Part shown: positions 5,399 through 57,285 of the stretch, piece after piece
Position numbering within the stretch: position 1 is the first letter of the stretch
How the letters are laid out: each line of letters starts with the position of its first letter
Source: Halichondria panicea
Taxonomy: Eukaryota > Porifera > Demospongiae > Suberitida > Halichondriidae
DNA: 64,000 bases
Direction of reading: 5' to 3'
Assembly (NCBI RefSeq): GCF_963675165.1
Contig: NC_087380.1
Span: 6,704,071 to 6,768,070, forward strand
The notes under the pieces: model-generated
What the model was told of the DNA's origin: nothing
Databases searched by the model: none
What the model saw: only the letters and a program-made list of their open reading frames with translations
Position numbers and translations under genes: made by a program

Positions 5399-7332
5399 AT
5401 GGCTGCCGTCCTCTCAATCAAGTCCCTGGAGGAGCTCTGTCTCACTCACGTAGCAATGACACTGGAGCAATACTCGACTGACTCTCTGTCACTACTACCT
5501 AAAGGTTTCAGATTACAGCTACTCCACAAGATACCAATTATTGACATTTGTCGACTAGAAGATACTGCATTTGTCACAGGGATCGATATGGAGCCTATTT
5601 GGAAGCAAATTTTTGTTGATTTCGAATGTGTCAGGAGACGATGTATAACTTCTGATGATGCTGTCAATGAGGTAACTGTCGGTGATGTGATCCCTTCATC
5701 TATCCAAGGCTAATGGAAACATCATTTTTTTAGTGTTTTTCTTGACTTTATTATACATGGTAAACGTCATTACGGTCACTTTAATACGTATGATGAAGCC
5801 TCTCTGGAACAAAGAAATTTCATTCAGTGAATTATATCAACTACTTGGTAGCAATGAAGTGCAAGAATTCCACTGCTAGAGAAAAACTGGTTACAGCTGG
5901 TGCCAATTATCTTCTGCCTATATTATCCTACCAAGAGGAATGTGAATCTTGGCATAGTAACAAAAATAAGTTTCAAGCTAGGCATTTTAAAGCACCTCGA
6001 CGCAGACCTGGTACAGACCCCTTGCCCTGTCTACAATACTGTCTACCACCTCCTGGAAAGGCTTACCATGAAGCTTGCCGAGCTGAACAGTTTGTCCCAC
6101 CTCGATACACAAAGTTCTTCTCTGAAGGAAGTTCCTACTTGCCAGACTCTACTGCACTGGAACTGATTGCTGAAAAGTGTAACTTTCAACCAAAAGAGAT
6201 GTGTGTGGTTGTTTCTTATTTGGTTTTGATGGTTCCATTTTTTCTAAAGCCTGAAAGAAATGACATTATATGGTTGGGAAAACTCATGAAGAATGTCGAG
6301 TCTCTTCGTATCATAACAGGTCGTAATTGTAGCAATGTGTGTGAAGCAATTCCATCGAAGATTTTACAATTAATAGTGCAGCAGGATAAGCCAAAACTTA
6401 CTTCAGTAACGATAGATTTTTCGTACTCTCGTTCATAAAATTTTGAAGATGTTCTCAACTCTCTCCCTCCTGTTCTTACCTCTTCATACAGTGGACTGAA
6501 GGAACTCCATATCAAGGTTGAATCTAGTCAGCTCCCAAATCCTGATAGCCTGATGGTAATATTTGAACACCATTGCTCACTGCACACTGTTTCGCTCGGG
6601 TGTCGTGATCCTATTTGTGGTAAATTAGACATGTCGATGTGATTAATAAAGCCTTGGCTTCAAGTATGCTTTACCAAGCCTTCTCTGCGCCATTTCAAAC
6701 TCTCTCTATCGCCAATGCCTACCCATGTTATGATGGACATCCTGGCCATGTTTCTCTCTACCCCACAAGAACAGACTCTTACCTTCAGTGCTATGGATAT
6801 TAAGAGTTCAAGGTATAATAGTTTCTATATACATGCACATGTCACATATACGCTTTGAATTGTATGCCAGTCTGTTTAATGTATGGTACATTTTTTATAG
6901 CAACCAAGGCACTCTATTTAATGAAAGACAACTTTTTGAAGACTCGATACTGCAACTCAAGTCACTGGAATTCTGTCAGTGCTCTTTCGGACCGTCTTTT
7001 ATGAATAGTTTGTTGAGCTTCCCTCCTTTTAATGTGAAGAAAATCTCAATGATCGAGGGAAACAAACAATTAAAATTAATACCCTACAATTTGCCAGCCA
7101 CCCTCGTGTTAAACTAGAAGCGTTAGATATAACTGACGTAAGAATGGATGGATCTGAAGACGTCGATATTATTCTGTCAAAGAACTCTCTGAAAACTGTA
7201 CAGTTTATGAATTGCCATGGCATTGATTGTACTACCCTTCGTGAAGCAGCTTTCCGACATGGGTTCAATGTTGAAGAGATCAAAGAATCTAGAATGTGTA
7301 GATATATACCGTTAGTAGAATGTAGTCTGTGA
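5399..7332 (+). pseudogene. VHL-box / LRR-family paralogue, copy 1 (broken)
   Basis: The first ~60 residues are intact and nearly identical to the other copies, including SLEELCLTHV (BC box) and LPKGFRLQL (Cul2 box). The gene is then disrupted: an in-frame TAA at 5711, a frameshift before 5827, an in-frame TAA at 6436 and a TGA at about 6640, judged against the intact copies at 25497 and 29370. The second exon region (about 6901-7332) keeps the LEFCQCSFGPSFMNSLL segment but is frameshifted near 7080-7115. The central GKAYHEACRAEQFVPP block (about 6055-6180) is preserved. This is a pseudogene of the two-exon subfamily. Confidence 0.85.
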
Positions 7333-7432
7333 TCATGTGTTTGGTCATTATAATTTTTTTTTGTGCTCACTGCATTAAATAAATGTACCAGGCAATCATG
7401 TTTATCAGGTGACATACAAAATGTATTTTGGT

Positions 7433-8067
7433 TACTGTATAGCGCGATATTTTTGAGTCACTTATATTTCGTGGAATGGCCTCTAAAAGCATTTTGTTCA
7501 TGGGGGTTGATTGCTTACTGGAAGCCATGGTTTTGTTTGAATGTTATTATAAATTATTACTTAACTTTGAGTCGTCATAACTTCAGTTTCAATAGAGTAC
7601 CAGCACAATTATAAATGTAGTTTGTAGCCCTCTGTAATGTCTATCTAATGGTGTATTTAAATCAGTAGAGATAGAGAAAGTTATATTCTCTGAGAAAAGC
7701 CATGGCGAAACCAAATCGTCCTGTTTTATTACCAAATTTGAGTCGTCATAACTTGAGTTTCGATAGAGTACCAGTGCAAATATAATGTAGCCCTTTGTAA
7801 TGTCTATCTAATGGTATGTTTAAATCAGTATAGAGATAAAGAAAGTTCTATTCTCTGAGAAAAGCCTAGCCTCGATCCCAGGCCGAGTTTTCGCTTTTAT
7901 AACGGTTAGGCGAATAACTAGTCGAGGCTAAGAAAAGCCATGGTGAAACCAAATTGTAGGAATTCGGCCTGTTTTTAATTATAGCAGATAATAATATTTT
8001 CGTGGACTTAATTTTTGTGTATAGGATTGCTAACCAAATTAAGCCTCTCGAAAAATTCGTGCTATAA
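7433..8067. mobile_element. MITE-like element of the TACYGTATAGCGCGA family with internal duplication
   Basis: The left end TACTGTATAGCGCGATATTT (7433) and the reverse complement of the right end around 8048-8067 resemble the ends of the element at 54689-54916, and both share the interior phrase GGAATGGCCTCTAAAAGCAT. The element is enlarged by a direct duplication of about 150 bp: copy A 7566-7723, copy B 7739-7970, both with GAGTCGTCATAACTT and TGTCTATCTAATGG. Copy B carries a further insertion described separately. Confidence 0.55.
7867..7930. mobile_element. 64-bp foldback insertion with 9-bp target duplication
   Basis: The insert begins TAGCCTCGA and ends TCGAGGCTA, a 9-bp perfect terminal inverted repeat. 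It is flanked on both sides by AGAAAAGCC (7858-7866 and 7931-7939). The neighbouring duplicated copy at about 7690-7710 has the same flank uninterrupted (GAGAAAAGCCATGG), so it is the empty site. Related sequence occurs at 15299-15316 (inverted), 38315-38374 and about 38404-38425. Confidence 0.8.
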
Positions 8068-8828
8068 TTATGGTAATAGTTACATCACCAAAGCAGTCAA
8101 TTTTGTTTAAGTATTCTGCTTGTTCTGATCACCATAGCAGGGGTTGTGAGTGTACATGCATGTCTGTCTTATACATGAATTATGATGTATATATAATTAT
8201 TAGCTAATGTATATGCAATAATGCTCTGAGCGAGCAATAGATTAACCTCTAACCCCACCCCCATTGCATTATGTGCTTATCAATTACAGTGAGGTCTCAT
8301 ACTGGGTGCTCTATTGTGCGGCAGTGCCGTATACCTGCTCAAGCTTTTCTATTAAAAGTCATTCGCAAACTTACACGATATATACGATTTCCACTCATTC
8401 TGTAATCTGCTCCTGGTAACTGCAGTGATGGTAATTTTGTGTGTGCATGCATTCTTATGTGGATTTTCATTATTGGTTAATTGTGCGTGTGTGGGCGTTG
8501 TTGGATTCTGGTATCTTAGCAGTGATGGATTTCTATTGAAGAAAGAAACCGTATACTACCAGAAATGTCTTAATTATATGCCTCGAGGCGTAGCCGCACG
8601 AGGGATACGATAAATGTCTGTCTATTCCAGCTGTAATTGCTCACTGTTACAATGCGACGAAAACTATAAGTCAATTTGTGTTAAGGTTGACCTTCATGAT
8701 GTTGTTACTTGCGGTAACATGCGATATCATGGTATCTAGCTACTCAGCAACCAAAATCTGTGGCATAGCTACACCCTTTTATACAGCAATTATGCATTTG
8801 CCATTCCACTTGAATTCATTAATAGTTC
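8068..8828. other. No gene recognised
   Basis: AT-rich, with short open frames only. A phrase at about 8580-8612 (GGCGTAGCCGCACGAGG) recurs in diverged form near 60421-60450, so part of it may be an old dispersed repeat. Confidence 0.45.
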
Positions 8829-9062
8829 TACCGTATCTAGCGGGTAGTTTCGGGGGGCCAAGTATTCGTGGTTGAGCAATATAGTATTTCGCCAGTTCGT
8901 GGATCTTATTTTCGCGATTGCTGCTTGCACTGCATCGATCAGCTGCATATTTAGGTCGTTTCATTCGTGGGTAAATATTCGTGGTCCATGCAGTGTTCAA
9001 CCATGATCGAAAACAATGAATATTTTGCCCCCTCTGGAAATTATACCAGCTATAATACGGTA
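8829..9062. mobile_element. MITE-like element, TACCGTAT..TAGC family
   Basis: Left end TACCGTATCTAGCGGGTA (8829) pairs imperfectly with the reverse complement of the right end (TATACCAGCTATAATACGGTA, ending 9062). The interior has repeated ATTCGTGG / TTTCGC words also seen in elements at 35811, 47380 and 54689. It ends about 57 bp before a FARSA exon. Confidence 0.5.
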
Positions 9063-9119
9063 ACGAAATGTCCACATCCTCATATCTCCCCCATGCACCC
9101 TCCTCTCTATAGATACCAG

Positions 9120-10101
9120 TGATTGAAAGCTGGGGGGAGGAAGCACAGAAGAACATCCTCCGCACACACACCACAGCCGTTAGTACTCGCATGCTCTACA
9201 AGATAGGACAGCAGGAGAAGTTTACTCCCGTCAAATACTTCTCTATCGATCATGTGTTTCGCAACGAGACACTGGATGCTACTCACCTGGCAGAGTTTCA
9301 TCAGATTGAGGGAGTGGTGGCCGACTATAACCTAACACTGGGTGACCTCATAGGAGTGCTTAATGCTTTCTTCCGCAAAATCAGTGAGACCTGATCGATT
9401 ATGTATGTTATGGGTGTGAGTGTCTTTACAAGTGCATGTATTAGTATAGGTATAGGGGGGGTGTGATTGCTCAAATCAGTTGACGTTAATAGCCTTATAT
9501 GATAGTATTTAATTGTGCGGGTGCGTTATTGGCATGGTTTCAGGTTTGACGATAGGCTACAATGTTGTGGTTCATTGAATCCAGGCTGCCTTTCAGAAAA
9601 CTCTAATGATAAGTTGCTATATATATAATTATGGCTCTGTTACAGTATTGTGAGGATCAAAGTGCATGCACATTACCTCCTCCATTACGCATGTCCCCTA
9701 ACTACTGCTATACCCCAGTGCACATAGACTAAACGATGGTACTGTCAGTGTTCCACTCACTTTATACTGTGCTCGAGCAGCTATTCCTACCTGCGACACA
9801 CCTGGTCACTATCATTGCACTGGTGTTACTATTAGGAGGATACATTAATGGTGGTCTTGAACGTCTGTCTAGGTCTAATGTCCTCCATAATTAATGTTCA
9901 TTGTGCTCTATTTTTACTATCCATAGCTGAGTATGAAGATAATTGTTAAAGCTCGCAACAATCTTTTTAAACATCTACATTGAAAATGTTGGTGCATCCT
10001 TCTCTTTAACAATCATGTTACAGGCATCACTCAGCTCCGGTTCAAGCCTGCCTACAACCCTTACACTGAACCGAGCATGGAGGTATTTAGTTATCACCAA
10101 G
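9120..10101 (+). pseudogene. FARSA: PheRS alpha catalytic-core exons (partial gene copy)
   Basis: Two adjacent exons with correct splice sites encode the class II core of cytosolic phenylalanyl-tRNA synthetase alpha, which with the beta subunit charges tRNA-Phe. Exon 9120-9383 (acceptor ATACCAG, donor GTGAGA) carries [26 protein letters not shown] and [12 protein letters not shown]. Exon 10024-10101 carries [20 protein letters not shown]. Phases join correctly. No N-terminal exons lie upstream. The next expected exon is only found 6.2 kb downstream (16289), in the right phase but with indels. I therefore treat this as a partial, probably dead copy, although these two exons themselves are intact. 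Confidence 0.75.
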
Positions 10102-11112
10102 GTCAGTGAATTGATATACATCATTGTATTGCCAAGGGGAAGTCTAAATCGTGAGCCAATCACTTTTCAACGATTGCATTTTGAAACTAGATCTGTTAAT
10201 TGGCATGCACTGAATTACATGATTTTTCCTGGGGTATAGGCCTAAGGCCCTGATAAATTCTGCTTTCATTCTACTTGAAAAATGTGCCTGATATGTAGAC
10301 AACATTAAATAAGACGTAGACATAAACACAGCAACATGCACAACATAATTAATTTGCCATGAAACGTCGTTATGCAAACTTAATATAGGCCTAATGATCT
10401 TTACCAAAAATGGACATTGATTCCGGTTTTAGACATGCACGTGTATTATGCTAAAATTATTCCGAGCATAATTTATCAGGGTCTCTCTCTAGAGAGGTGG
10501 GCGTATTTACCATCTGTTGTATTCATAATTATATAGAGTGCATGGCATCTCAGTGTGTATATATATAGGTGTTGCCTTTTCCTTAGTCATTCTGTGATTT
10601 GCATTTGTTTGCTTACTTTTAACCATTATAGTTGTGGTACTTGTTTTGATTGTGCTACACACTACACAGCTTCATCCTCTTCCCTGCGCTGCAGCCAGGT
10701 ATACCTGCTAGATCCGCCCCTGGAAGCAGCAAAGGCCCACGATGATCAAATATGTTATCAGCAAGGTCAATTAACCTCGGAGCTGGAGATGGTCCACAAC
10801 AACCCTGTGCCAATTTAATTTTACGCTTATAATTAGAGCTTATAGTTATAACTGTGTGTTAGATCTTAATAATCACTAGATATTCAACTGATGCAGCTTC
10901 CATAAAAATATATTATAAAGACTGTAAGGTTGTTATCACAATTTGATCAGCTTATTACAATTACATCGACTCATGATCATGACCATGCATACGTATAACA
11001 ATACTCAAATTTTGATCCTGAAAAACGCTTATAATTAGTATAAATATATACGCCACTACTGCATGTAGTTCTAATCCTTGGCTGTTTGACATTTTGTAAA
11101 CTCCTTGGCTAT
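10102..11112. other. No gene recognised; possible exon-edge remnant
   Basis: Non-coding by inspection. Bases 10484-10501 (TCTCTCTAGAGAGGTGGG) are identical to the exon-donor edge of the FARSA exon at 16382-16399, so a decayed copy of that exon may have stood here. The rest shows no similarity. Confidence 0.35.
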
Positions 11113-12350
11113 TTAAACATTGTGTACGTTTATTTCACATTCAATGAATACAGAATCATCTTGTGTGATATATCCACTCATTAGTTCCGCTTGAGATGCG
11201 ATGTTTGGGCAGCCATACACAATATTTTTATCTGTATCGGGTTTTGCACATGTGGGGCTGTCTTGTGATCCAAGAGATCTGATGATGTCTCCGCCTCCAG
11301 TCTTGTTGATCACTTTGAACATTATCTGGTTGGGGAAAGGCCATTGAAGCTTACTATCGAATTCTCCTTTTATGATCATGAAGTTGAGTGACATGCTAGG
11401 TTCATTGTTGATGAGATCAAAACGCACGTTAAGACGTACTTTGTAGCGGCATCTCTCCAAAAAGAATGGCTGGCTGGAAAATGTTTTGCCCTTTTCAGTC
11501 AAAGACTCAACTATTTTCTGATTAACTTGTGAGATCTCAATCAGGATATTTCCATTGTCTGCTTTTTTTGCATGAAAGTCTCCAGCCAGTTGACTTTTCA
11601 AACTTCGATTTTGTTTACAAAGTGCAACATTTACTGCTCGTTCTATTCGTATTTTCTCTTCCAATTCGTTTCGATCTTTGGCCAATTTCATGAGTTGTGT
11701 TTTATTGACGGACAGACAAAGCTGTTGCTGTTTCTCACATTGTGATGAAAATGCTTTTCGAAAAGGTGATGCTCCTTCCAATTTCTTCGGACATTGTAAA
11801 GGTGATGCCAGTATACCAAAATGGTTATTCAACTTTGATTTCATATGTTCGTTGAGCTCAGATGTTGTCATCTGCAGCAAAAAGTAAGTAGATACGTATA
11901 TTCAAAATTAATAGTCGTGTATATCTGTTATCCATAAAGATATTGACTAGATTAATAACAGGACCACCAATTAATTGTTTGCCCAAATGGGAAAGGTTCC
12001 TTTGAAAAGGTTTACACAACACAAAGCAAAATTAGTCTTACCCAGTAGAGGCCACTGCATGTGTGATTTTTGTCACTGTCAGATGAATTATTAAATTTGC
12101 ACTGGATATAATTAACGCGTATAATTAATTATAGCTAACTCCATGTATCTACCATTCTGAATGATCATAGGCCCTACCAGCTACAGGTTATAGATCTACC
12201 ATAGATATAGATATGGCCCTACAACTTGAAGTTTATATTGAACATGATCTCTACCATTTCCTGAGTACAGCCATATTCAGCAATCGGACAAGGACTGAGA
12301 TGATATTTAGGATGGTCCACTTGATTCAATTTGTCATCACAATTTGACAT
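11113..12350 (-). CDS. RING-less TRAF-like protein (one zinc finger, coiled coil, MATH domain)
   Basis: Two exons: 12255-12350 (ATG at 12350, donor GTAGAG) and 11113-11871 (acceptor CTGCAG), giving about 284 aa. The first exon plus the start of the second form a TRAF-type finger (CPIAEYGCTQEM, then EHMKSKLNNH). A charged helical stretch (about residues 70-110) follows, then a diverged C-terminal MATH/TRAF-C domain with PFFLERCRYKVRLNV, MIIKGEFDSKLQWPF and IVYGCPNIASQAEL. The MATH fold binds receptor or substrate peptides and trimerises. There is no RING, so no direct ligase activity is expected unless upstream exons were missed. Its structure matches the gene at 33644-34643. Confidence 0.75.
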
Positions 12351-12541
12351 TTTGCAAGATACTCGCGTACTCGCTGGCCAACAAGTACGTAGCTAGCTCA
12401 AATTATGTGGTAGGCGTATAATTATACAGGGGCATTCCCTGGGACAGTCCCCTATACAGTAAAACTGTACTACACATAATTATCGGTAGAGCAAACAATA
12501 ACTATGAATAACTATATATACACCACAATGATTATGAATCA

Positions 12542-16135
<3,594 letters not shown>

Positions 16136-17874: not shown

Positions 17875-19717
17875 ATGGCTACCGTCCTCTCAATGAAGTC
17901 CCTGGAGGAGCTCTGTCTCACTCACGTAGCAATGACACTGGAGCAATACTCGACTGACTCTCTGTCACTACTGCATAAAGGTTTCAGATTACAGCTACTC
18001 CACAAGATACCAATTATTGATATTTGTCGACTGGAAGATACCAAGTTCATCTCGGGGATCGATATGCAAGCAATCTGGATGGAGCTTCACAGAGAGTACT
18101 TACGTGCAAGTGTTTACGACTCAAGTTTGGACTGGAGAGAATCATTTTTTAGAAGACTCTTCTCTGCCATTGTTAGAGGGGAGCGTCCATACGGACATTT
18201 TTATGTAGATCGAAAGGAAAATCATACTATAGCGTTTGGCCGTCGATTGGAGGAAATTGTTGGCGAGTATATTAAAGTGGACTTTGTAAATTTTTTAGTG
18301 GTAGTAAAGCGCGAAATTCCAGTGACATTTTCTGGGGAAGATGTTGTAAATTTGATCAATGGCCCAGTATATCGTGGTAAGGCATACAGTGTTCTTTGTC
18401 GGGCTAAACAGTTTGTCCCACCTCGACACGCAAAGTTCTTCTCTGAAGGAAGCCGCTACTTACCAGACTCTACTGCACTGAAGCTGATCACTGAGAATTA
18501 ATTGTCACTATCGACCAAAAGAGTTCACTGTTGATGTAGTAAGCAGTACATTTGCTTTCAATTTGATGCCCCAAAAAGTTAATTGTTTGAGGAATTGTTT
18601 CAAAAAGGTCGAGTCTTTAACTATTCAAGGATACATTGAACAAAGCCAAAGACCAACCGCGATTATTCATGGAGCTAGGTATGGAGAGTGTAAGGACGTT
18701 GCTCGCTGTACTCTTCACTTGATACCCAATCCAAAATTTACCAGTCTCACAATTGGGCTCAGTCCCACTGAGAATGTAATAGATACAATAACGCCACCTC
18801 TGACTGCTTATGGTGGCTTAACGGAACTCACTCTTCAAGCTTACGGTAATGTTTCTCCGGATTTTCAAAAGCTAAGTTCGATAACTGAACACCAACCTTC
18901 ACTTCACACTGTGTCAATATTGGTTGGTATAGGAATGGTAAGGCGACCTCAGAGTAATATCGTTTCTTGTGCCCCAACGTTATCTGAAAAGCATTTCATT
19001 TCTTGGCTTCAAACATGTTTCAAGAAACCATTGTTGCAAGACCTAAAGCTCTCACTTGAACCAGCATATTTGAAGTTTCTTATCCGGGTGCTTACTGATT
19101 TTCTTTCGACACCATGCTCACACGAACAAACTCTCACTATCCGATGTGATCTCGAAGAGTTGCCCCCAATTTTGCCCCCCAGACCTCCTTGTGTTTTTAA
19201 ATCAGGACCGCCTCTCCCTCCAAATCATCCTACATTGCGGACACCACCACTATCCCCTAAACCAATCCATTCAAGTGAATCCAGTGACGTTCCCACCACG
19301 CCCATTCATCAGTTTGACGATGCTTGCACTATGAAGTACAAATGTTTGACCTTTGATTATTGTAGGATTGGCCATTTGTTTGCTAAAGCTTTCATGGAAC
19401 TTGCCCCTTTGAAGCTTAAAAATAATATGTCGATTCTTAAAGGAAGCCTAAAAAATCAATACTCCTCTGAATTTCTCTCACAGCTTGCCCAACATCCGCT
19501 CATTGAAATGGAGTCACTAGAATTGGAGCTTGACAAGAATGAGTTGTCTACTTTTGACTCCATACTGCAAAAGAAGTCGTTGAAATTTGTAACTGTTACA
19601 TGTTCTGATCGCTGTTTTACCATGTTTTCTGACATTGCTTTACGCCAAAGTTTTAAGATTAAGACGATAGTTGAGACTCCTAAAAACAGAGTCATGTTCA
19701 CTCTTTCTAGAAATTGA
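17875..19717 (+). CDS. VHL-box / LRR-family paralogue, copy 2 (single frameshift)
   Basis: Coding runs 17875-18492, then a 4-base insertion (extra TTAA at about 18496-18499) creates a stop, then the frame resumes and stays open to 19717 (about 600 aa if read through). The N-terminus carries SLEELCLTHV and LHKGFRLQL, the proposed BC and Cul2 boxes. The central block QFVPPRHAKFFSEGSRYLPD is near 18410-18470. Then come leucine-rich segments (GGLTELTLQ; PLLQDLKLSL; LIEMESLELEL) and a proline-rich linker (about 19165-19260, PPLPPNHP). Unlike copies 4 and 5 the second half is one exon with a different tail (KYKCLTFDYCR). With one lesion in 1.8 kb it is either a very recent pseudogene or a sequencing error. 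Confidence 0.7.
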
Positions 19718-20011
19718 TTTTCGTTCCATTGATCTATTCACACCCTTTATAAGAAGTAACTTTATAGTTTTTTAGTTTCACCTTTCTGGTGTTTATGATT
19801 ATTGTATATCTACCTGTGTTGTATCTGCATGTATCCCTTTCCTTGCCATTCGTGAAATCTGGAACAGGAGCGTCTTTAGGTCCATCAATTAGTGTGGATC
19901 CGGCCTCACCACGCCTCCATGTCATTCTATTAGTCTAGATCCGGCTAGCAATTCTAGCTGGGACTCCCAGTTCTAGCTCCTTTTGTTTAGCGTGTCAGAG
20001 ACTGGGAGAAG

Positions 20012-22006
20012 ATGATTGGCACTCCCTGGCTCCTTTGGATGTACAGCTGTCCAGATCCCTACAACTTGACCAGTGCCCTTCGATCGGCCAAAAAAGACTT
20101 TTTCTCAAATCTCGCCAAAAACATCCACTCTCCAAAGGACTTTTGGTCTGCATATCACAAACTGTCACCAAACCATCAGAGGATTCCACCCCAGATAACT
20201 CTCAAACACCACTCAGCAGAAAAACCTATTGAAAAGGCGAATCTTTTTAACAATTTTTTTGCATCTTGTTTCTCTAAACCATCACAGCCGCTGCCTATCC
20301 CATCACCAACCACTCAAGCAGTGTCCCTTCTATCCATACACTGCTCTGTTTTAGAGGTAGAACAACAACTACTACACTACAAACAAAAGACTGCTTCTGG
20401 ACCAGATGGAATCTCTAGCATTATGTTAAGGAACACTGCCAGCTCCATAGCACCCCAACTGTCTACACTCTTCAACCTATCCCTCAGTCAAGGAAAAGTC
20501 CCCTCGGCCTGGAAAGTCTCAAATGTAACCCCAATTCACAAAGCTGGTGATAAATCTGATGTCTCTAACTATAGACCAATTTCATTACTGTCCTTAATAT
20601 CGAAGGTTCTCGAGAGAATTGTTCACAATCAAATATCACTTCATTTAACATCAAACAAACTTCTCTCCAACAACCAATTTGGTTTCAGGTCAGGATTTTC
20701 AACTCAGGATGCACTACTGACTGTCACAAACGACTGGCACCAATTACTATCAAAAAACAGACAAGTAGGAGCAGTTTTCTTTGATATTCGTAAAGCATTC
20801 GACTCTGTCCCCCACAATCAGATCATTAAGTCACTCTCAAAACATGGTATCTCGGGTCCACTGCTAACTTGGCTCTCAGACTACCTATCAAACAGAAGTC
20901 AGAGAGTCGTCCTGGAAGGTGCATCCTCAACACCGTGCCGTGTAACGTCTGGAGTCCCTCAAGGCTCTATTCTGGGACCCCTACTGTTCATTATATTCAT
21001 GGACTCGCTGAATGAAATAAAGCTCTGCCCCGGAACCAAGCTAATCCTATATGCTGATGACATCCTCCTTTACAGGCCAGTAATTTCAGATAACGATCTC
21101 ACTCAGCTCCAGCAGGATATTAATGCAGTTCACAACTGGACTATACAACATGGTCTCCTTCTAAACAACAAAAAAACCAATGTTCTACCCATCACAAGAT
21201 CTATGAATGCGATCCCACTCACCCTCTCTATTTCAAACCAGCAAATCCCCATTGTGGAATGTTTCAAGTACCTCGGCGTCACCATCTCTAAGAATCTGTC
21301 CTGGTCTCAGCACATTACTAACACTGTGAGGACATCCAAACAACAACTGGGATTGCTCCACAGGAAGTTAAAAGATGCATCACAGCAATCAAAGCATACA
21401 ATTTACAGGAGCACTGTACTACCCAAACTTGAATACTGCGCCGCAGTATGGGACCCCCATCAATCAACACTCACCAAGAAACTGGAGAACACCCAATCAT
21501 TTGCCTGCAAAATCATAACCAAAGAATGGAAATCTGACTATACTTCTCTACTTAACAAACTCCAACTCAAATCTCTTAAAGACCGCAGGAATATCCAAAA
21601 ACTTAAAGTATGCTTCAAAATCATCAACAACAAATCCTGTATTCCTCCCTCTGTCTTCTCACCCCACCCATCCCCTTCCCCCCGTCATCCGCACAGCCAA
21701 ATACTCTTTATACCACATGTGGGCACCTCATCCCACAAACATTCCTTTTTTCTGGATGTAATACCAAAATGGAATTCTTTACCACCAGAAGTTATCAACA
21801 GCTCCTCTGATTCATCATTTAAATCGAACCTCAGTAGCTTTTTGTGTAATAATTATTATAATTAGCCGTAGCTCCTGTTTTATTTCTCTGTTTTTGTGTT
21901 GTCCAGGGGAAGTCTTCACACTAGCCATCTGAGCTACCTGACCTACCCTTATGCATACCTTGGTTTTGCATAAAAATTTCTTAAATAAAAAAAAAAAAAA
22001 AAAAAA
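20012..22006 (+). mobile_element. 5'-truncated non-LTR retrotransposon (LINE) with poly(A) tail
   Basis: A 617-codon open frame (20012-21865) encodes a LINE-type reverse transcriptase. Visible motifs are SGPDGI, YRPISLLSLISKVLERI, QFGFRSGFST, the catalytic FFDIRKAFDSVPH, SGVPQGSILGPLLF and the YADD box at 21049-21060, followed by the thumb and a C-terminal KYLGV / YCAAVWDPH segment. The endonuclease domain is missing, so it is 5'-truncated. The 3' end has an untranslated tail and about 20 A residues (21987-22006). The lineage looks like the CR1/jockey group. The RT frame is undamaged, so insertion is fairly recent. The exact 5' junction was not determined. Confidence 0.9.
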
Positions 22007-22448
22007 GAACATACCCTCCATTCTGACGAGTTATCAGTGCATAGGGTGCTTACTAGATTCTTGCCAGCCAGTACAGTTCAAGCTACACACAGCACCGCTC
22101 AACTATTCTCTACCCCATTATCTAGCTAAATCTGGTCCAACTAGACAGCAGACACAGCTAGTTAATTCAGTAAAGCCAGGGGTAGCCCTACTTCTACGGT
22201 TGTTCAGTACCCACGGTAACAATTCCTCTGGGCTGGGCTAACTAGTTGAGCCACGCCTCACAATTCTCAAGGCTAGGTACATGTCTCTGTCTAGCTGCTT
22301 CTTCAGCTTCTTGCTCAGTTTTGTGGCTTAGAGAAAGGCCAGCTACTCAGGGGGAAGAGTCCAGATGAAAGTCTGGCAGCCAGGTGACGTCCAAACGGTC
22401 AGTTATTCTTTCCACCAACTTTTTAATCTAGTCTAGTCCTGCTTGCAC

Positions 22449-22537
22449 TGCTACTACTGCTACTGCTACTCTTCCTACTACTACTGCTGCTACTCTTCCT
22501 AGCTAGTCAAAGGTTTCTTTTTTTTTTTTTTTTTTTT
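22449..22537. repeat. CTACTACTG microsatellite and T run
   Basis: Interrupted CTA/CTG trinucleotide repeat at about 22449-22497 followed by a 20-base T run (22518-22537). Confidence 0.7.
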
Positions 22538-23184
22538 ATAACTACATATGCACAAAGAGACATCAAAGCTTACATCAAAGGACACAGATTTTTAGCCTAC
22601 TTGACTGATAAGGCGGTTACCTAGACTACAGTTTGTTTGTCAGGGAGGAGCTCACATACAACTTCATCTAATTCATCATAACGATTCCTTACCCATTGTT
22701 GTAATTTCTACAACAGATTGCCAAGGAAAGAGGTATAGGAATTTGATAAAGTTTGTAAGGAATTTGATAAAGTTTGTACATACCAGACTCCATGACTAAG
22801 ATTGTTATCTTAACCTCGTATGTGCATATTCATATATTGTGTGGGTGGAAGCATCATGTGGGAATTGACGACCATATTCGGTATTTGCTGTGTCTGCTAT
22901 CTCTAGGACTAACTTCCAACATTAGCAAGTGATTTACTATAGCTGTAAATTGGAGTTAGCATACAGTTGTAACTTGTTAGGGCATTGAATAATTATGTAT
23001 TAGTGTGCTGGAATAATTATAGCTACGTTTTATTTGTGTAAGTGCTTATATTATTACAGCTTTATGGTGAGATGTGTTCTAGGCAGCTAGTGCCAGGTTT
23101 TTAGTGGGGATGGAGGTGTTCTAGTTATGTATCGCATTTGTGTACATATATTGTAGTGTATGTATTTATGTAGGAGTCTCAACA
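22538..23184. other. Upstream region of LRR copy 3
   Basis: No gene. A 20-bp direct repeat (AGGAATTTGATAAAGTTTGT) occurs twice in a row near 22737-22777. The segment GGGTGGAAGC...GGTATTTGCTGTGTC (about 22850-22895) recurs upstream of copies 4 and 5 (about 25300 and 29060) and near 32650, marking shared upstream sequence of the family. Confidence 0.5.
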
Positions 23185-24986
23185 ATGGCTACCATCCTCT
23201 CAATGAAGTCCCTGGAGGAGCTGTGTCTCACTCACGTAGCAATGACAATGGAGCAATACTCGACTGACTCTCTGTCACTACTGCCTAAAGGTTTCAGATT
23301 ACAGCTACTCCACAAGATATCAATTATTGACGTTTGTCGACTGGAAGATACCAAATTCACCACGGGGATTGATATGATGTCTGTTTGGGTGGAGATTTAC
23401 CAACAGTACATAGGTATAAATCGTTACAATCCACGTTTAGACTCGAGAGAATCATTTTTTAGGCAACTTTTCATTGTTATTATTAGAGGGGAGCGGCCAT
23501 ACGGATATTGTCAGGTGCAAAGTCGGAGGGCAAGGCAAACTCCGTGGATTGGTAGCAACATGAACGAAGATTGTCCTGTTAGCGAGTATAAAGTGGACGT
23601 TGTTAACTTTTTGGTGGCAGTAAAACGCGAAGTTCCAGTTGTAACTACACAAAGTCTGTATAGAAAAGTTGATTCTACAATACCCGCCACGAAGTGACTT
23701 TAGTAAAAGGCCCAGTACCTCCTGGTAAGGCTTACCATTAAGCTTGTCGGGCTAAACAGTTTGTACCACCTCGATACACAAAGTTTTTCTCTGAAGGAAG
23801 CTGCTACTTACCAGACTCTACTGCACTGGAGCTGATTACTGAGAAATGTCACTATCGACCGAAAAAGCTCGTTTTTGTCTTACAAAGGTTCAATACATTT
23901 GTTCTCAATTTGAAGCAAGAATTAAGCAGTGTCGATTGTTTGAGGGATTGTTTCAAAGATGTTGAGTCTCTAACCATTATTAGGCAAAGGGAAAGTGCGA
24001 GAATTGAAAGTGAGGAAGTTATTAGCTGTGCTCCTGACCTGAAACTTTTAGCAGCCAACCCCAAGCTGACGAGCCTTACAATAAATGACGACAATATAAT
24101 AGATATCATTACACCAGCTCTGACTGCTAATGGTGGCCTAAAGGAACTAACTCTCAACACTAATGTTTCTCCTGATTTTCAGAAACTTGCTGAGATGACC
24201 GAACACCAACCTTTACTTCACTCTGTGTCATTGTCGGTCACCTGTTTATTTTTTGATCCAGTTTCTATTTATACCCCCAGAAAGGGTTCCAAGACACATT
24301 TCATTTCTTGGCTTCAAGCATGTTTCAGAAACCCATCGTTGCAAGACTTAAAACTAAAGCTCAACACATCATCTCCAGAGTTACCTCTCCAAGCCGTCAT
24401 TGTTTTTCTGTCAACACCATGCTCACACCAGCAAACTCTCACCTTGCAAATCCTCGGAGAATATGCGTCAAAAGCTATCGAACCATCCCCTAAACCTCCT
24501 GCACCACTTCACAAACCCTTAAAAAATACAACACTCCTGAGTATACCTAGTGACGTTCCCACCTCACGTGTTCATCAGTTCGACAATGCTTGCAATCTGA
24601 AATACAAATGCCTGACCTTTGATTTTTGTTCGGTCCACGCTTCCTTCACTAAAGCTTTCTTGACACTGGCCCCTTTGATGCTCAAGCATATAAGTCTTAA
24701 TGGAGTCTCGTTAATTGCCACTGAATTCTTCTCCCAGCTTGCCCAGGAGCCACTCATTGAAATGGAGTTATTAGAAGTTACCTCTGTGTTGCGTGACCAT
24801 CAAAGCACGACTGACCTTGACTCTTTGCTTCGTAAAAAATGTTTGAAATCTGCATCTATAAAGTATTATTCTTACGATAGTTTTCCAGTGCTCTCTGATG
24901 TTGCTTTGTGTCGAGGTTTTGAGATGAAAACAAACTTCAATACTTCTACAAAGGAAGTCACATATATTTTTACTAAAATTGTGTAG
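23185..24986 (+). pseudogene. VHL-box / LRR-family paralogue, copy 3 (broken)
   Basis: ATG at 23185 follows a TATGTAG acceptor-like site. The N-terminus with SLEELCLTHV and LPKGFRLQL is intact. A frameshift near 23680 leads to a stop at 23695, and in the correct frame the central block contains a nonsense TAA at about 23741 (GAA in other copies). From there the frame is open to 24986, with leucine-rich segments and a tail related to copy 2 (KYKCLTFDFCS, LIEMELLEV). It belongs to the single-exon subfamily with copy 2. Confidence 0.8.
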
Positions 24987-25496
24987 TACATTGAAATTGT
25001 ATACGCCGAGGTTTTGTGATTAAGATAACAGTCAAGACTCCCAAGGGTAGTGACTGTGTGGTGTTCACTCTCACTCTCTCTATAGAAATTGATTTTATTA
25101 TTTCTAGGTAAATTGTTGCACTCTTATAATCCTTTGATCCACTCACACTCTTGTCTTTATGTTTAGTGCTTTTGATTGTTCCTGCATGCATGTATTCAGT
25201 ATTCTGTATTTCTATATTTTCTGCTATGATGTCGATACACTCAAACGTGAATTAAATTGGTTGTCCTTGTAGACTATGTGCATATTCATTGCGTGGGTGA
25301 AAGTATGTCAACAAACATATTCGTATTTGCAGTGTCAGCTATCTGAGACCAAACAAACAATTAAAGTAGGTAGTTATACTAGGTATGTTAGCATGTCTTG
25401 TATGTATGAGTTTGCATAACTGTTGCCTGTGTAAGTGCTTATAATTATATAGAGAACACACAACACATAATTGATGTGTATGTAGAAGTCTCAACA
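24987..25496. other. 3' flank of copy 3 and upstream region of copy 4
   Basis: Bases 25005-25215 (CGAGGTTTTGTGATTAAGAT to the CTGTATTTCTATATTTTC region) are repeated in inverted orientation at about 27815-28025. The last bases contain TGTATGTAG followed by AAGTCTCAACAATGG, a conserved acceptor-like leader before the start codon of copy 4. Confidence 0.6.
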
Positions 25497-27391
25497 ATGG
25501 CTATGGCCATCTCAATAAAGTCCCTGGAGGAGCTCTGTCTCACTCACGTAGCAATGACACTGGAGCAATACTCGACTGACTCTCTGTCACTGCTGCCTAA
25601 AGGTTTCAGAGTACAGCTACTCCACAAGATACCAATTATTGACATTTGTCGACTAGAAGATACTAAATTTGTCATAGAGATCGATATGGAGTCTGTTTGG
25701 AAGCAAATTGTCGTTGATTTGGAATATGTCCGGAGACAACATATCATTGATGTTGATGATGTCAATAAGGTAGCCATCGGTGATGTGGCCCCTTCATCCA
25801 TAGAAGGCTCTTGGAAACATTATTTCTTTAGTGCCTTTATTGACTTCATTGTACGAGGTAAACGTCCTTATGGATACTTTAACTATTCATTTGGTCAAGA
25901 TGATCAGGTTGTGGGATTTCATCCAGTGGATCATATCAACTACTTGGTGGCAATTAAGTGGGAAGATTCAACTGCTAGAAAACCATCTGGTGCAGAATAT
26001 CTTCTGCCCTCATCCAGCAAAGAAGAGTTTCAATTACATCTAGCTAGGCATCGTCTCAGACATGACGACGGTTCGTTGCCCTGTCTACAGCTTCCTGGTA
26101 AGGCCTACCATGAAGCTTGCCGGGCTAAACAGCTTGTCCCACCTCGATACACAAAGTTCTTCTCTGAAGGAAGCTGCTACTTACCAGATTCTACTGCACT
26201 GAAGCTGATCACTGAGAAATGTCACTTTCGACCAAAAGAAATGTGTATAGACTTACTTACTTTGTTTTTAGTAGTTCCAACTTTTCTAGAGGAAGGAGAG
26301 GACATTGTTTGGTTTAAAAAACTTGTGAAAGATGTTGAAACTCTGAAAATCATAACTGGTCGTGATTGTAGCAATACATATGTAACAATTCCATCGAAGA
26401 TTGTACAACTAATAGTTCAGCAGGAGGAGCCTAAACTTACTTCAGTAACGGTGAATTTTTCGGACTCTCGTTCACTAAATTTTGAAGATGTCCTCAACTC
26501 TCTCACTCCTGTTCTTACCTCTTCATACAGTGGATTGACGGAACTCAATATCGACGTGGATGCTAGACAGTTCCCAAATCTCGATAGTCTGGTTGCGATA
26601 GTTGAGCACCATTGCTCACTGCACACTGTTTCTGTCAAGTGTCGTCATCCTTCTCGTGCTGAATTAAACATGTCAATGCAATTAATGAAGCCTTGGCTTA
26701 AAGTATGCTTTATCAAGCCATCTTTGTGTCATTTCAAGCTCTCTCTGTCGCCAATGCCTACCAACATTATGATGGATATCCTGGCCATGTTTCTCTCCAC
26801 CCCTCGCTCACAAGAACAGACTCTTACTTTCAGTGCTATGGATATTGGGAGTACAAGGTATTAAAGAATAGTATTTGCATTGGTCTCTGCACATTCAAAT
26901 TATGATATACTGTTACTTCTTTTCATTACAGCGCTCAAGTCACCAGCCTATCTGACATCACCCTCGAAAGACAAGTCTTTGAAGACTCGATACTGCAACT
27001 CAAGTCACTGGAATTTTGTCAGTGCTCTTTCGGACCATCCTTTATGAATAGTTTGTTGAATCTTCCTTCTTTGAAAGTGAAACAAATGTCCACGAAAGAA
27101 CATTTTTATGCAGGTAACAAACAAAATACTTTACAATTTGCCAGTCACCCTCGTGTTAAACTTGAATCATTGAATTTAACTGGAGCAAGGATGGATGGAT
27201 CTGAAGACTTTGATGCCATTCTGTCAAAGAACTCTCTGAAAATTGTGCAGTTTGTTAATTACCATGGCATCGATATCGTTGCCCTTCGTGAATCAGCTAC
27301 ACGACATGGGTTCAAAGTTGTGAGATCAAAGACTCTGACGAGTGTAGATATACTCTTACTAAAATTGAAAATAGTGTGTGATCATGTGTAG
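25497..27391 (+). CDS. VHL-box / LRR-family protein, copy 4 (intact)
   Basis: Two exons, 25497-26857 and 26932-27391, separated by a 74-nt GT-AG intron, give 606 aa in one frame. I start at ATG 25497 because the 15 bases before it are conserved in all copies and look like a 5'UTR exon edge; an in-frame ATG at 25476 would lie in the leader intron. Residues 9-18 (SLEELCLTHV) fit the BC-box consensus for Elongin C binding, and 33-41 (LPKGFRVQL) fit the Cul2 box. Leucine-rich strand/helix repeats follow (GLTELNI, SLCHFKLSL, LKSLEFCQCSF, KLESLNLTG). By analogy with ZYG11, LRR-1 and PRAME proteins it would be a substrate receptor of a cullin-2 RING ligase. The family link is inference; the motifs are seen. 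Confidence 0.8.
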
Positions 27392-27522
27392 ACATTTTAT
27401 AGTTGTGTTTGTGCTTACTGCATTGAAATATACAAAGCAATAATATTCGCATTTCATTGGGACATGCATTTCATTGACTCTGGCCACATTCCGCTAGAGC
27501 TCATGGAAATTCTGCAAGAGTC

Positions 27523-27812
27523 TACAGACCTAATCCTAGCTCTACTTGATTTTGCCCCCAAGCTATTAGGTCTGGCCCCCAGACTACATTACCAAAACAT
27601 GACGTAATAATTATGAAGATGCATGATGTGGAATTTGGATTACAGCGAGAGTAATTGCTACATCTACTCCTTCCTTATAACCTCCAATATCACAAGTCTA
27701 ACTAGATTCCAAGAGCACACCAAAGTACTGCAAGAGTTTCCAGACTTTTTCTCCTCTTCCTCCTCTGAGAAAAGGTATGGCCCCTATAGAATGCATGAGT
27801 AGATTTTGAAAG
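27523..27812. repeat. Foldback-like repeat shared with 31.3 kb
   Basis: The reverse complement of about 27523-27605 (AAAATCAAGTAGAGCTAGGA and TGTAGTCTGGGGGC) matches 31321-31410. Bases 27716-27812 (AGCACACC, TTTCTCCTCTTCC, ATAGATTTTG-like) match 31403-31520 directly. So the element at 27.5 kb has two arms in opposite orientation, while 31.3 kb has one colinear copy. Confidence 0.55.
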
Positions 27813-27814
27813 TG

Positions 27815-28025
27815 AGCAGAAAATACAGAAATACAGAATACTGAATACCTGCAGGAACAATCAAAAGCACTAAACATAAAGACAAGAGTGTGAGTGGATC
27901 AAAGGATTATAAGAATGCAACAATTTACCTAGAAATATAAATCAATTTCTATAAGAGCGAGTGAGAGTGAACACCACACTGCCCTTGGGAGTCTTGACTG
28001 TTATCTTAATCACAAAACCTCGGTG
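27815..28025 (-). repeat. Inverted copy of the 3' flank of LRR copy 3
   Basis: This stretch is the reverse complement of 25005-25215, including CCTTGGGAGTCTTGACTGTT and TTTCCTAGAAATAATAAA-like bases, with small indels. It marks the remains of an inverted paralogue or a rearranged 3' flank. Confidence 0.7.
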
Positions 28026-28030
28026 TATTA

Positions 28031-29369
28031 CTTACGGACTTAGAGATTGTCAGTGATGTAAACTTACTTCTCTAAAGTAACCTCCCAGCCCCTGAGTGAT
28101 CGCTAGTGGATAGGAGAGCTGAAATACAACCAGAGTACGGTCAAAACGAACGAGCGCGAAGTCATACGCGGAGTGTTTCAACCATTTACACAGGGAGGTC
28201 TTGTCGTTTCCAATCCCCTCCCTTTTCAATTTATGAAGTAATAATACAGTTACAGTTAAAGTTTCTAATGATCTGAACATCAAAGCGGATTGAATGATAA
28301 TGATATTCATAGAAATTTAATTGAAAAACACACCCCTAACTTCCTCAATAACCCTTTACTGTGGTCAAATTGTTGTAAATTTTACAACAACAATCTGGGA
28401 GGGAGCGTGATATCAACTTGTGAATGTTGCATGATATTGGATTCTGTGGCAGATTGGATAGTATCATGAATGCGATTATCCTTTGAAGTTCTGCTGAGTT
28501 GTTCAATTAGGACACTTAAAAAAAGGTTTAAAACAAGCTATACAGCATGTAGAACTGAGTAGTATCCATTGGTAGACCCTCTGGACTATCTTGGTAGCCA
28601 TAGAATATTTTCGAAGAGGAAGCAGCAAGCCATTTGTGTACACAGGCACTTCACAAGTGGACACAAGCACTACAATAGTCTACATGCTTGCTAAGCAGCT
28701 TAGTTGACCAGAGTGCAGCTTTTAAAGGCCACACATACTTCCATCGAGGCAGCAGCAAGGCATAAAATCGATGGGGTTAGTTTGTGCACAGCCATTGATG
28801 ACCCACGCCCATCTCTACAAGCCATAGCCACTTCATTGGAGGCGGCGATAACATCAAGCTAATTTGGTGGGTTGGGATCAGCAAACTGTTCCAGATTGTG
28901 TGTGCGATTGACCTGGAAAGGGATAAGGGGAAGTGCATAATTTAATTTTAGTCATAATTATTTCATGACCAAAAAAACCCATACAAATTTATCTTTTTCT
29001 ATTCGTTTAGTGCCTCTAATTTGAGGTCACATGATATTTGGAGTGCATATTCATTGTGTGGGTGGAAGTGTGTGGACAATCATATTTGGTATTTGCTGTG
29101 TCAGCTATCTAGAACCAAACAATTAAAGTGGAGTAAATTTTACTAGGTATGTACGTTGTCATAGCATGAACGTCTTGTATGTATGAGTTTCATAATATAT
29201 ATAACTGTTGCCTGTGTAAGTGCTTATAATTATATAGAGAACACACATAATTTATATGCATGTAGGTGGTGTGTTCTAGACATCTGTTGCCTGGTGTATT
29301 TTTGAGACGGAGTTCTAGTTATAGTATGTAAAGTACTCACTTTATATACACTATGTAGAAGTTTCAAGA
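28031..29369. other. Upstream region of LRR copy 5
   Basis: No gene recognised. An 86-codon - strand frame (28050-28310) has no family resemblance. Bases about 29040-29270 repeat the upstream sequence of copy 4 (GTGTGGGTGGAAG, AACAATTAAAGT, TGTAAGTGCTTATAATTATA), so the promoter region was duplicated with the gene. Confidence 0.5.
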
Positions 29370-31243
29370 ATGGCTACCGTCCTCTCAATGAAGTCCCTGG
29401 AGGAGCTCTGTCTCACTCACGTAGCAATGACACTGGAGCAATACTCGACTGACTCTCTGTCACTACTGCCTAAAGGTTTCAGAGTACAGCTACTCCACAA
29501 GATACCAATTATTGACATTTGTCGACTGGAAGATACTGAATTTGTCACAGGGATCAATACGGAGTCGGTTTGGAAGCAAATTGTCGTAGATTCGAAATTT
29601 GTCCAAAGACAACATATCATTAATGTTAATGATGTCAATAAGGTAACCGTCGGTGGTGTAGTCCATTCATCCATAAAAGGCTCTTGGAAACGTTATTTCT
29701 TTAGTGCCTTTATTGACTTCATTGTACGAGGTAAACGTCCTTATGGATACTTTAACTATCAGGTTATGGGATTTCATCCAGTGGATTATATCAACTACTT
29801 GGTGGCAATCAAGTGCGAGGTTTCAACTGCTAGAAAACCATCTGGTGCCGAATATCTTCTGCCCTCATCCAGCAAAGAAAATTTTAAATTAAAAAACGCA
29901 TCTAGGCGTCTCAGACAATTAGACGACGGTCTGTTGCCCTGTCTACGGCCTAGTGATAAGGCCTACCATGAAGCTTGCCGGGCTAGACAGCTTGTCCCAC
30001 CTCGATATGCAAAGCACTTCTCTGAAGGAAGCTCCTACTTACCAGATTCTACTGCACTGAAGCTGATTGCCGAAAAATGTCACTTTCGACCAAAACAATT
30101 ATGTATAGACTTACTTACTTTGTTTTTAGTAGTTCCAACTTTTCTAAAAGAAGGAGAGGACATTGTTTGGTTTGAAAAACTTGTGAAAGATGTTGAAACT
30201 CTCGAAATCATAACTAGTTGTGATTGTAGCAATGCATATGTAACAATTCCATCGAAGATTGCACAACTGATAGTTCAGCAGGAGGAGCCTAAACTTACTT
30301 CAGTAACGGTTAATTGTTCGAAATCTCACTCACTCAAGTTTGAAGATGTCCTCAACTCTGTCGCTCCTGTTCTTACCTCTTCATACAGTGGACTGAAGGA
30401 ACTCAGCATCAAGGTTGAATCTAGTCAGTTCCCAAATCTCGATAGCCTGGTTATGATAGTTGAGCACCATTGCTCACTGCACACTGTTTCGATCGAGTTT
30501 CGTTATCCTTCTTGTGCTGAATTAAACATGTCAATGCAATTAATGAAGCCTTGGCTTAAAGTATGCTTTATCAAGCCATCTTTGCATCATTTCAAGCTCT
30601 CTCTATCGCCAATGCCTACCCATGTTATGATGGACATCCTGGCCATGTTTCTCTCCACTCCTCGCTCACAAGAACAGACTCTTACTTTCAGTGCTATGGT
30701 TATTGGGAGTACAAGGTAAAGAATATAGTATTTGCAAATTATTTTGCTGGTCTCTTCTCATTCAAATTATGATATACTGGTTTTTCTTTTCATTACAGCG
30801 CTCAAGTCAACAGTCTAGCTGACATCACCCTCGAAAGACAAGTCTTTGAAGACTCAATACTGCAACTCAAGTCACTGGAATTTTTTCAGTGCTCTTTCAG
30901 ACCATCCTTTATGAATAGTTTGTTGAATCTTCCTTCTTTGAAAGTGAAACAAATGTCCACGAACGAAGATTTTTATGAAGGTAACAAACAAAATACTTTA
31001 CAATTTGCCAGTCACCCTCGTGTTAAACTTGAATCATTGAATTTAACTGGAGCAAGGATGGATGGATCTGAAGACTTTGATGCCATTCTGTCAAAGAACT
31101 CTCTGAAAATTGTGCAGTTTGTTAATTACCATGGCATCGATGTCGCCCTTCATGAAGCAGCTACACGACATGGGTTCAATTTTGTGAGATCAAAGACTCT
31201 CAGACTGACGAGTGTAGATATACTCTTACTAAAATTAAAATAG
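29370..31243 (+). CDS. VHL-box / LRR-family protein, copy 5 (intact)
   Basis: Exons 29370-30715 and 30799-31243 with an 83-nt intron (donor GTAAAG, acceptor CATTACAG) give 596 aa. The gene is very close to copy 4 throughout. Residues 9-18 SLEELCLTHV and 33-41 LPKGFRVQL are the proposed Elongin-C and Cul2 docking boxes. The central block GSSYLPDSTALKLIAEKCHF follows a diverged region (about residues 56-190), then leucine-rich repeats end in KLESLNLTGARMDGSEDFDA. No signal peptide or membrane segment, so a cytosolic or nuclear adaptor is expected. The start has the conserved CTATGTAG leader acceptor before it. Both exons are undamaged, and with copy 4 this is the best candidate for a working gene. 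Confidence 0.82.
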
Positions 31244-31320
31244 TTTGTGATCATGTGTAGACATTTTATAGTTGTGTTTGTGCTTACTGCATTGAAATGT
31301 ACGAAGCAATCATGTTCATA

Positions 31321-31530
31321 TTATGTCATGTTTTGGTACTGTAGTCTGGGGGCTATACCTATATAATAGCTCGGGGGAAAAATCAAGTAGAGCTAGGATT
31401 AGGTCTGGAGCACACCGAAGTGCTGCGAGAGAGAGTCTCCAGACCTTTTCTCCTCTTCCCCTCCCTCTATGAGAATAGATCTGACCCAATACAAAATGCA
31501 TGTGTATAATAGATTTTGGAAGTGGTTATT
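31321..31530. repeat. Repeat shared with 27.5-27.8 kb
   Basis: Colinear version of the repeat described at 27523-27812, containing TGTAGTCTGGGGGC, AAATCAAGTAGAGCTAGGAT and CCAGACCTTTTCTCCTCTTC. A related word set (GTCTGG, CCAGACC) occurs near 14575-14830. Confidence 0.5.
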
Positions 31531-31594
31531 AATTACATCACCTGAATATACAATGTTTTAATGATCAGAAATTATGATGAAACTTGTGAACTGT

Positions 31595-31781
31595 ACCTTA
31601 AGGTGACATACTTTTGCGTGTATTAATTTCTGCTATTTCTGCGAATGAGAGTAAAATCGCAAAAATTAGTACTCGCAAATAATTGGCCGCCCTCTTCAGA
31701 TCGACATTTCACAAACAAATTATACCAGGCAGTACAAAACTGTAAAAACGCTCTACCTGTGAAAAGATGTCACCTTAAGGT
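31595..31781. mobile_element. 187-bp MITE with 15-bp terminal inverted repeats
   Basis: Perfect inverted repeats ACCTTAAGGTGACAT at 31595-31609 and its complement at 31767-31781. The outer 10 bases (ACCTTAAGGT) are themselves a palindrome. Interior without coding sense. A copy-and-paste relative elsewhere in the window was not noticed. Confidence 0.75.
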
Positions 31782-32159
31782 AACTATAATTGTTTTGCCT
31801 ATAATTATGAGTGGAGTATAGATTACATACAACGATTGGCTATAATTAATTAACCTCTCACCCCACCTCCCACTGCTGCAGACCCCCCCCCCCGTCATCT
31901 CGGGACTTTCCCACCAATTATGATGACGCTATTAATAGTAATAAATTTGCATGAGTGATGATATCCCTCCTTGCCTTTTTTTGGTGTTGTTAAATTGTTA
32001 GCACATTGTACCTGAAGTGATTGTGGTCACAAATGCTCATTTGTGACATAGGTCTGGCCAAATTTCTCCTGTGTATCTATTAGCTAGAGTTGCACTTTCC
32101 AATGAACTCTCTTGGTATTATGCCCTCAAATCATTCTACATTGACACCACCATGCATGC

Positions 32160-32480
32160 ACTATCCCCCAAACCAATCGATTCGAGTGAACCCAGTGACA
32201 TTCCTATCACGCCCATTCATCAGTTTGATGCTTGCACTATGAAGCACTCCACTGAATTCTCTCATAACTGGTCCAACACCCACCAGCTCATTGAAATAGA
32301 GTTAGTCACTAGAAACAAGATGATGTGTCTAGTTTTGACGCCATACTGCAGAAGAAATTTTAACCGTTGTGTGTTTTATAATGTTTTCTGGCATCTCTTT
32401 ACACTGAGAACGATAAGTCATGACTCCCAAGGGCAGTGTGGTGTTATTGCACCTCTTTCTACAATTTTATTGTATCCTTA
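32160..32480 (+). pseudogene. Truncated 3' fragment of an LRR-family paralogue
   Basis: Bases 32160-32245 closely match 19249-19336 of copy 2 (SPKPIDSSEPSDIPITPIH, then QFDACTMK). A deletion then joins to sequence matching about 19460-19720 (STEFSHNW, IEIELV, CRRNF), ending with the GACTCCCAAGGGCAGTGTGG tail. No 5' half is present, so this is a degraded remnant. Confidence 0.7.
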
Positions 32481-32835
32481 AAATGAGTACGTATTATAAT
32501 TATTCCATTGATCTCTACTTTTTCACTTTAGTTTTTAGTTGTTCAAGCTTTATCGTACATTTGTATGTTGTGCCCAGTACCACTACCCTCAACTGTGAAT
32601 AAGATTGTTGTCTTAACCTCGATATGTGCATATTCATACACATTGTGTCAAGTGGGTGGAAGTTAAGCATGTGGAAATTAATGACCCTTAAAGGTCAAAT
32701 ATTGCGGTATTTGATGTATCAATGCAGCTAGGACTATAAACTTCCAATAACAAGTGATTTTAAAATACTGTAAGAATTCTTTTAGTGTTATAATAGGTAG
32801 TTTAAATCTGTAACTTGTAGAAGTCTCAACTGACA

Positions 32836-32860
32836 ATGGCTACGGTCCTCTCAATGAAGT
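32836..32860 (+). pseudogene. Five-prime stub of an LRR-family paralogue
   Basis: ATGGCTACGGTCCTCTCAAT (32836) plus GAAGTC matches the start of the other copies, preceded by the conserved CTTGTAGAAGTCTCAAC leader, and then ends abruptly at CGATATAG. It is a promoter-and-start stub cut off after about eight codons. Confidence 0.75.

Positions 32861-41800: not shown

Positions 41801-57285
<15,485 letters not shown>

Follow-up and report, generated by a model that had tools for sequence, protein, structure and literature searches.

The 64,000-nucleotide stretch of Halichondria panicea DNA analyzed here (hereafter the window; C4:6704071-6768070 of a 131-Mb genome in 39 contigs) carries part of an array of leucine-rich-repeat (LRR) protein genes, which probably encode substrate receptors for cullin-RING ubiquitin ligases of the Elongin-BC type. 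Systems of this kind are already known; what is new is that the predicted N-terminal docking cassette is uniform across the array, while the flanks and bodies of the genes diverge. Ten Wnt-family exon matches, distributed over three contigs, identified the genome as that of an animal.

The array is real and extends beyond the window. It begins ∼20 kb upstream and comprises nine copies, all on the same strand, and two fragments within ∼51 kb of one chromosome. The copies upstream of the window were designated u1-u4 and those inside it w1-w5 (Table 1); a tenth copy, an open singleton designated C5, is located on another chromosome. Searches with w5, the w5 N-terminus and the C5 copy all recovered the same set of copies, and outside this set only weak matches were obtained (E of at least 0.57). 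Five of the ten copies (u1, u3, C5, w4, w5) are open over 593-680 residues, and the other five (u2, u4, w1, w2, w3) are broken. The sequence-only reading of the window had placed five full-length paralogues and two fragments on the plus strand. The near-full-length copies in the window do number five and lie on the plus strand, with w4 and w5 open after removal of one intron each and w1, w2 and w3 broken; one fragment was recovered in the window, while a second was not found there at tblastn E≤1e-4. The frame changes in the broken copies could represent assembly indels or unrecognized introns, explanations that are harder to apply to the in-frame stops.

The first 165 coding bases of the array copies were found to be 90-98% identical in all 36 pairs, silent sites included (shuffled sequences: 60%). 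In the 250 bases upstream, identity was 60-70% in 30 of these pairs, i.e., near the shuffle level, and 81-89% in the six pairs formed among u2, u3, u4 and w1. Much of the gene body was also near the shuffle level, with higher values in the body stretches compared for the younger pairs (w4-w5, 85-88%; u1-w2, 84-91%; u3-u4, 74-89%). The contrast is seen between w5 and u3, in which 25/25 four-fold degenerate sites are alike in the first 60 aligned codons and 20/21 in the 60-codon window from aligned codon 181, compared to 3/8, 2/6, 1/10 and 3/13 in the windows at 61, 241, 271 and 301. The synonymous divergence (dS) of this pair is 0.066 in codons 1-57, saturated in codons 58-130 and above 1 further on. 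In comparisons with w5, the high-identity block starts near the ATG and is common to all nine array copies, whereas the C5 copy does not share its silent sites (3/10 four-fold sites alike with w5, 5/12 with u3). A second uniform block, in which silent sites of w5 are alike with u3 (the 20/21 above) and u1, precedes the LRRs and reads KAYHEACRA.Q.VPPRY.K.FSEGS.YLPDSTAL.LI in the family proteins.

Copy w1 is a mosaic. Its upstream flank is close to that of u4 (identity 0.89, compared to 0.61-0.62 with w4 and w5), while its body resembles w4/w5 (0.71-0.78) and stands at the shuffle level against u4 (0.60-0.62), so that a u4-like flank is joined to a w4/w5-like body near the cassette. From this mosaic, and from the silent-site identity of the cassette set against the diverged flanks and bodies, we infer that gene conversion has apparently spread the docking cassette and the second block from one array member to another.

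The cassette encodes two motifs, given in passages of PMC4878042 as the BC box, (S,T,P)Lxxx(C,S,A)xxx-phi, and the Cul2 box, phi-Pxx-phi-xxx-phi. The BC-box sequence SLEELCLTHV was read in all five window copies, as had been reported, and the 14-residue spacing to the LP motif holds. The LPKGFRLQL ascribed to all five is exact in w1 and w3 only; w4 and w5 have LPKGFRVQL, and w2 has LHKGFRLQL, which lacks the proline. Each consensus was matched by nine of the ten copies, the BC box in all five open ones and the Cul2 box in all but w2. Among 130 open reading frames (ORFs) of at least 100 aa from 12 stretches, nine held both boxes, eight of them family members. In shuffled u1, u3 and C5 proteins the pair arose at any position in 4-11% of cases, but at the N-terminus, with its start in residues 1-15, in only 0.05-0.15%. 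The residues of ZYG11B that contact Elongin C include L18, C22, L26, F50, P51, V54 and L58 (PMC13201589, in the part available); in the family, residues of these kinds (hydrophobic, Cys or Pro) recur with matching spacing inside each box.

AlphaFold predicted both boxes to lie on helices, in w5 at residues 10-20 (BC box) and 35-44 (cullin box), followed by further helices, as in Elongin A. The absence of these two helices, or a match to an unrelated fold such as a death domain, had been named as results that would speak against a VHL box; both helices were predicted, and no death domain appeared among the fold matches listed, which does not in itself exclude one. When the N-terminal domain alone was compared, the CRL2 (cullin-2 RING ligase) receptor APPBP2, in the top row, and Elongin A ranked first, with weak Z scores of 6.0-6.5. 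The remainder of the protein was predicted to form an LRR solenoid, for which LRR fold matches were found. The C5 model contains strand/helix repeats up to approximately residue 571 of 593, with no all-helical ARM stretch after the LRRs. The proposed architecture, taken as a BC-box/cullin-box docking domain followed by LRRs, is moderately supported by the motif fit, the predicted helices, the structural ranking and the LRR fold matches; the accompanying PRAME label is not.

No sequence relatives were found via Pfam and PDB. We compared the family with the N-terminus (210 residues) of human LRRC41/MUF1 as we take it to read, a provisional sequence with no PDB entry or Pfam family against which it could be checked. 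Its alignment with u1 scored 92 (shuffles, 30.6 ± 4.9; 0/3000 as high), those with w4, w5 and u3 scored 55-59 (1, 1 and 3 of 3000 shuffles as high, respectively), and that with C5 scored 43 (51/3000). Scored with a profile of five family sequences, it came out on top of a set of 6004 (E 5.7e-5; the next, a shuffle, at 0.39), and a profile without u1 still gave E 6.7e-4. The profile alignment, at positions 41-103, lies mostly outside the homogenized block. A search of the whole genome with the same sequence gave two matches at E≤10, to u1 at E 0.005 and to w2 at E 0.015, and no others. The N-termini share, in the same order, an LP box, (R/Q)(L/I)E, W and W-x-x-x-F, and differ in that LRRC41 has LPGP where the family has LPKG or LPKA; the LRR parts were outside this comparison. 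If this LRRC41 sequence is correct, the family is LRRC41-like, and, as a lead, the nearest sequence relative found would be a CUL5-type LRR receptor. The comparison was prompted by PMC10716050 (in excerpt), where MUF1 is cited as an LRR protein of the Elongin-BC type whose cullin is CUL5; its Elongin BC binding and CUL5 assembly are described in passages of PMC4812663.

Other receptors resemble the family in part. The VHL-box CRL2 receptors ZYG11B, LRR-1, PRAME and APPBP2 likewise combine a BC box with a phi-Pxx-phi-xxx-phi box. APPBP2, the only one of them compared by sequence, shows no similarity past the motifs, and ZYG11B differs from the family model in its C-terminal ARM domain, which follows the N-terminal boxes and the LRRs (PMC13201589). 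Elongin A gave no significant sequence match to the family; the excerpted text of PMC10716050 presents it as one subunit of a transcription factor, bearing a TFIIS domain at its N-terminus, and describes no LRR.

The boxes had been taken to indicate a CUL2 receptor. In favor of this, nine of the ten copies have the Cul2 pattern, and none has the Cul5 box LP-phi-P (pattern from PMC4812663, in part). However, the Elongin A sequence VPYSVLEPV also fits the Cul2 pattern without LP-phi-P, and both Elongin, according to the available text of PMC10716050, and MUF1 work with CUL5. CUL2 would be slightly ahead of CUL5 as the partner. The genome contains exons attributed both to CUL2 (E 2.1e-17) and to CUL5 (E 8.3e-40), as well as a match to RBX1 (90% over 59 residues), Elongin B-like exons (53% and 44%) and a three-exon match to Elongin C. 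The C-terminal 46 residues of this Elongin C differ from the human sequence, as we take it to read, at four positions (75, 94, 96 and 97), while all the contacts named for ZYG11B are identical to it, i.e., V73, Y76, Y79, N85, S87, F93, I95, L101, L103, L104, M105, A107 and L110 (PMC13201589).

In the receptor model that we favor, the first ∼55 residues would constitute the docking module, with the BC-box helix lying in the Elongin C groove and the cullin-box helix selecting CUL2 or CUL5 together with an RBX protein. The C-terminal LRR solenoid would capture a target, leading to its ubiquitination. The docking module would stay common to the copies through tandem duplication, copy decay and recurrent conversion, while the flanks, the linker and the LRRs diverge.

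The uniform SLEELCLTHV was apparently copied for the most part by conversion and is therefore weak, non-independent evidence of constraint; better evidence comes from C5, which keeps both boxes at 30-36% overall identity. In the converted block, dN/dS among array copies is not low (for w5 and u3, for instance, a nonsynonymous divergence, dN, of 0.093 for a dS of 0.066), and half of the copies are broken, as would be expected of LRR proteins whose docking module has been lost or was never ligase-active, mostly decaying duplicates kept alike by conversion. We consider this explanation unlikely, given the five copies that remain open over 593-680 residues, the dispersed singleton among them, and the excess of dS (0.128) over dN (0.076) in the LRR part of w4-w5. 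In comparisons of the whole model, Foldseek ranked the F-box LRR protein COI1 best and TIR1 fourth, and in the VIA-align comparison the pairing with FBXL3 began at residue 40. This would suit an F-box-type LRR family in which LPKGF...IIDICRLED...W docks on SKP1 and the preceding helix is incidental. The start at LP, the helices after it and the later Trp do resemble the F-box consensus; no F-box model was obtained at E≤10, a search in which the HMMER filters discard weak matches. We give an F-box family a small chance.

Little probability is also attached to the idea that nucleotide-level constraint, e.g., a regulatory or RNA element, and not conversion, lies behind the silent identity over the first 165 bases. 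The position of the block near the ATG in comparisons with w5, and its presence in all nine array copies, would agree with such an element, but C5 lacks these silent sites, the second block before the LRRs shows the same pattern, and the flank/body combination of w1 requires recombination. That the genes are true members of the PRAME or ZYG11 families, with which they share the order of N-terminal BC/Cul2 box and LRRs, is very improbable: the ARM domain of ZYG11B is absent from the C5 model, PRAME is reported, in the available part of PMC3037382, from eutherians only, and the provisional LRRC41 alone beat the shuffles among the candidate relatives compared, a set that included no PRAME or ZYG11 sequence. 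The description of the array as PRAME-like is likewise not supported, the nearest sequence found being the provisional LRRC41. Mammalian PRAME clusters do resemble the array in that they encode LRR proteins of CUL2 ligases that have been duplicated and evolve rapidly; they differ in that GENECONV found no conversion among the bovine copies (same excerpt), although one human gene was suspected of inter-locus conversion or misassembly, whereas here the docking cassette is homogenized.

The decay of half of the copies and the diverged bodies fit birth-and-death evolution with partial concerted evolution. Over codons 58-220 of w4-w5, dN slightly exceeds dS (0.105 compared to 0.092; 0.148 compared to 0.130); as this excess is small and comes from few sites, adaptive evolution is not claimed. 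More speculatively, and with a probability only a little above that of the weaker alternatives, the cluster might act as a cassette system for receptors, in which conversion over a tract that starts near the ATG and ends around codon 50-60 keeps the docking module uniform, and recombination through the tract exchanges upstream regions and recognition bodies, as in w1, yielding receptors that change quickly, perhaps directed at pathogens or selfish elements. The best-known examples of rapidly evolving cullin-receptor clusters are PRAME in mammals and the F-box genes of plants and nematodes. An Elongin-type LRR array with a uniform docking module and a diverging recognition part would be an independent case, and would allow tests of whether such receptors evolve against moving targets and of how a receptor family with an LRRC41-like body and a Cul2-like box switches its cullin partner.

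Table 1. Copies, fragments and uniform blocks of the receptor gene family. Positions without a prefix are those of the window; C4 and C5 denote contigs.
Feature	Position	Strand	Description
u1	C4:6684247		open, single exon, 624 aa
u2	C4:6688624		broken: TAG within BC box and frame change
u3	C4:6691490		open, single exon, 680 aa
u4	C4:6697609		broken: TAG, early end
Family fragment	C4:6700846-6701035		∼3 kb upstream of window
w1	5399-7296	+	broken: stop after codon 104, then more frame changes and stops
w1 docking cassette	5399-5563	+	first 165 coding bases
w2	17875-19714	+	broken: frame change near 18488-18501; cullin-box LP replaced by LH
w2 docking cassette	17875-18039	+	first 165 coding bases
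w3	23185-24986	+	broken: frame change near 23697, TAA beyond
w3 docking cassette	23185-23349	+	first 165 coding bases
w4 exon 1	25497-26857	+	open
w4 docking cassette	25497-25661	+	first 165 coding bases
w4 intron	26858-26931	+	74 bases, GT..AG
w4 exon 2	26932-27391	+	protein 606 aa
w5 exon 1	29370-30715	+	open
w5 docking cassette	29370-29534	+	first 165 coding bases; SLEELCLTHV, LPKGFRVQL
w5 second uniform block	29958-30099	+	∼residues 197-244, just before LRRs; silent sites alike with u3, u1
w5 intron	30716-30798	+	83 bases, GT..AG
w5 exon 2	30799-31243	+	protein 596 aa
Family fragment	32143-32247	+	best match u3 residues 532-559; tblastn E≤1e-4
C5 copy	C5:1380654-1382432	-	open, single exon, 593 aa

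Several other ORFs are interspersed with the array or adjoin it. A TRAF-type MATH ORF (11113-11898, minus strand; Pfam E 1.6e-17) lies between w1 and w2, and the reverse transcriptase ORF of a retroelement (19991-21865, plus strand; RVT_1, E 1.4e-41) between w2 and w3. Two further TRAF-type MATH ORFs are located on the minus strand just downstream of the array, at 33644-34432 (Pfam E 2.6e-20) and 36153-36821 (2e-42), and a plus-strand ORF at 52615-53613, possibly ubiquitin-related, combines a TRAF-type zinc finger (E 1e-11) with a sub-cut-off RING match. Near the upstream part of the array, ORFs with HSLRATGATRLFEANVPEKLIQERTGH-like stretches (L009:5755-7180, L010:8904-9233) resemble what we take to be pieces of a tyrosine recombinase/integrase. 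The window also contains a CutC-family ORF (39037-39816, plus strand; E 9e-75) and a 365-aa ORF composed largely of Pro/Glu repeats (40098-41195, minus strand).

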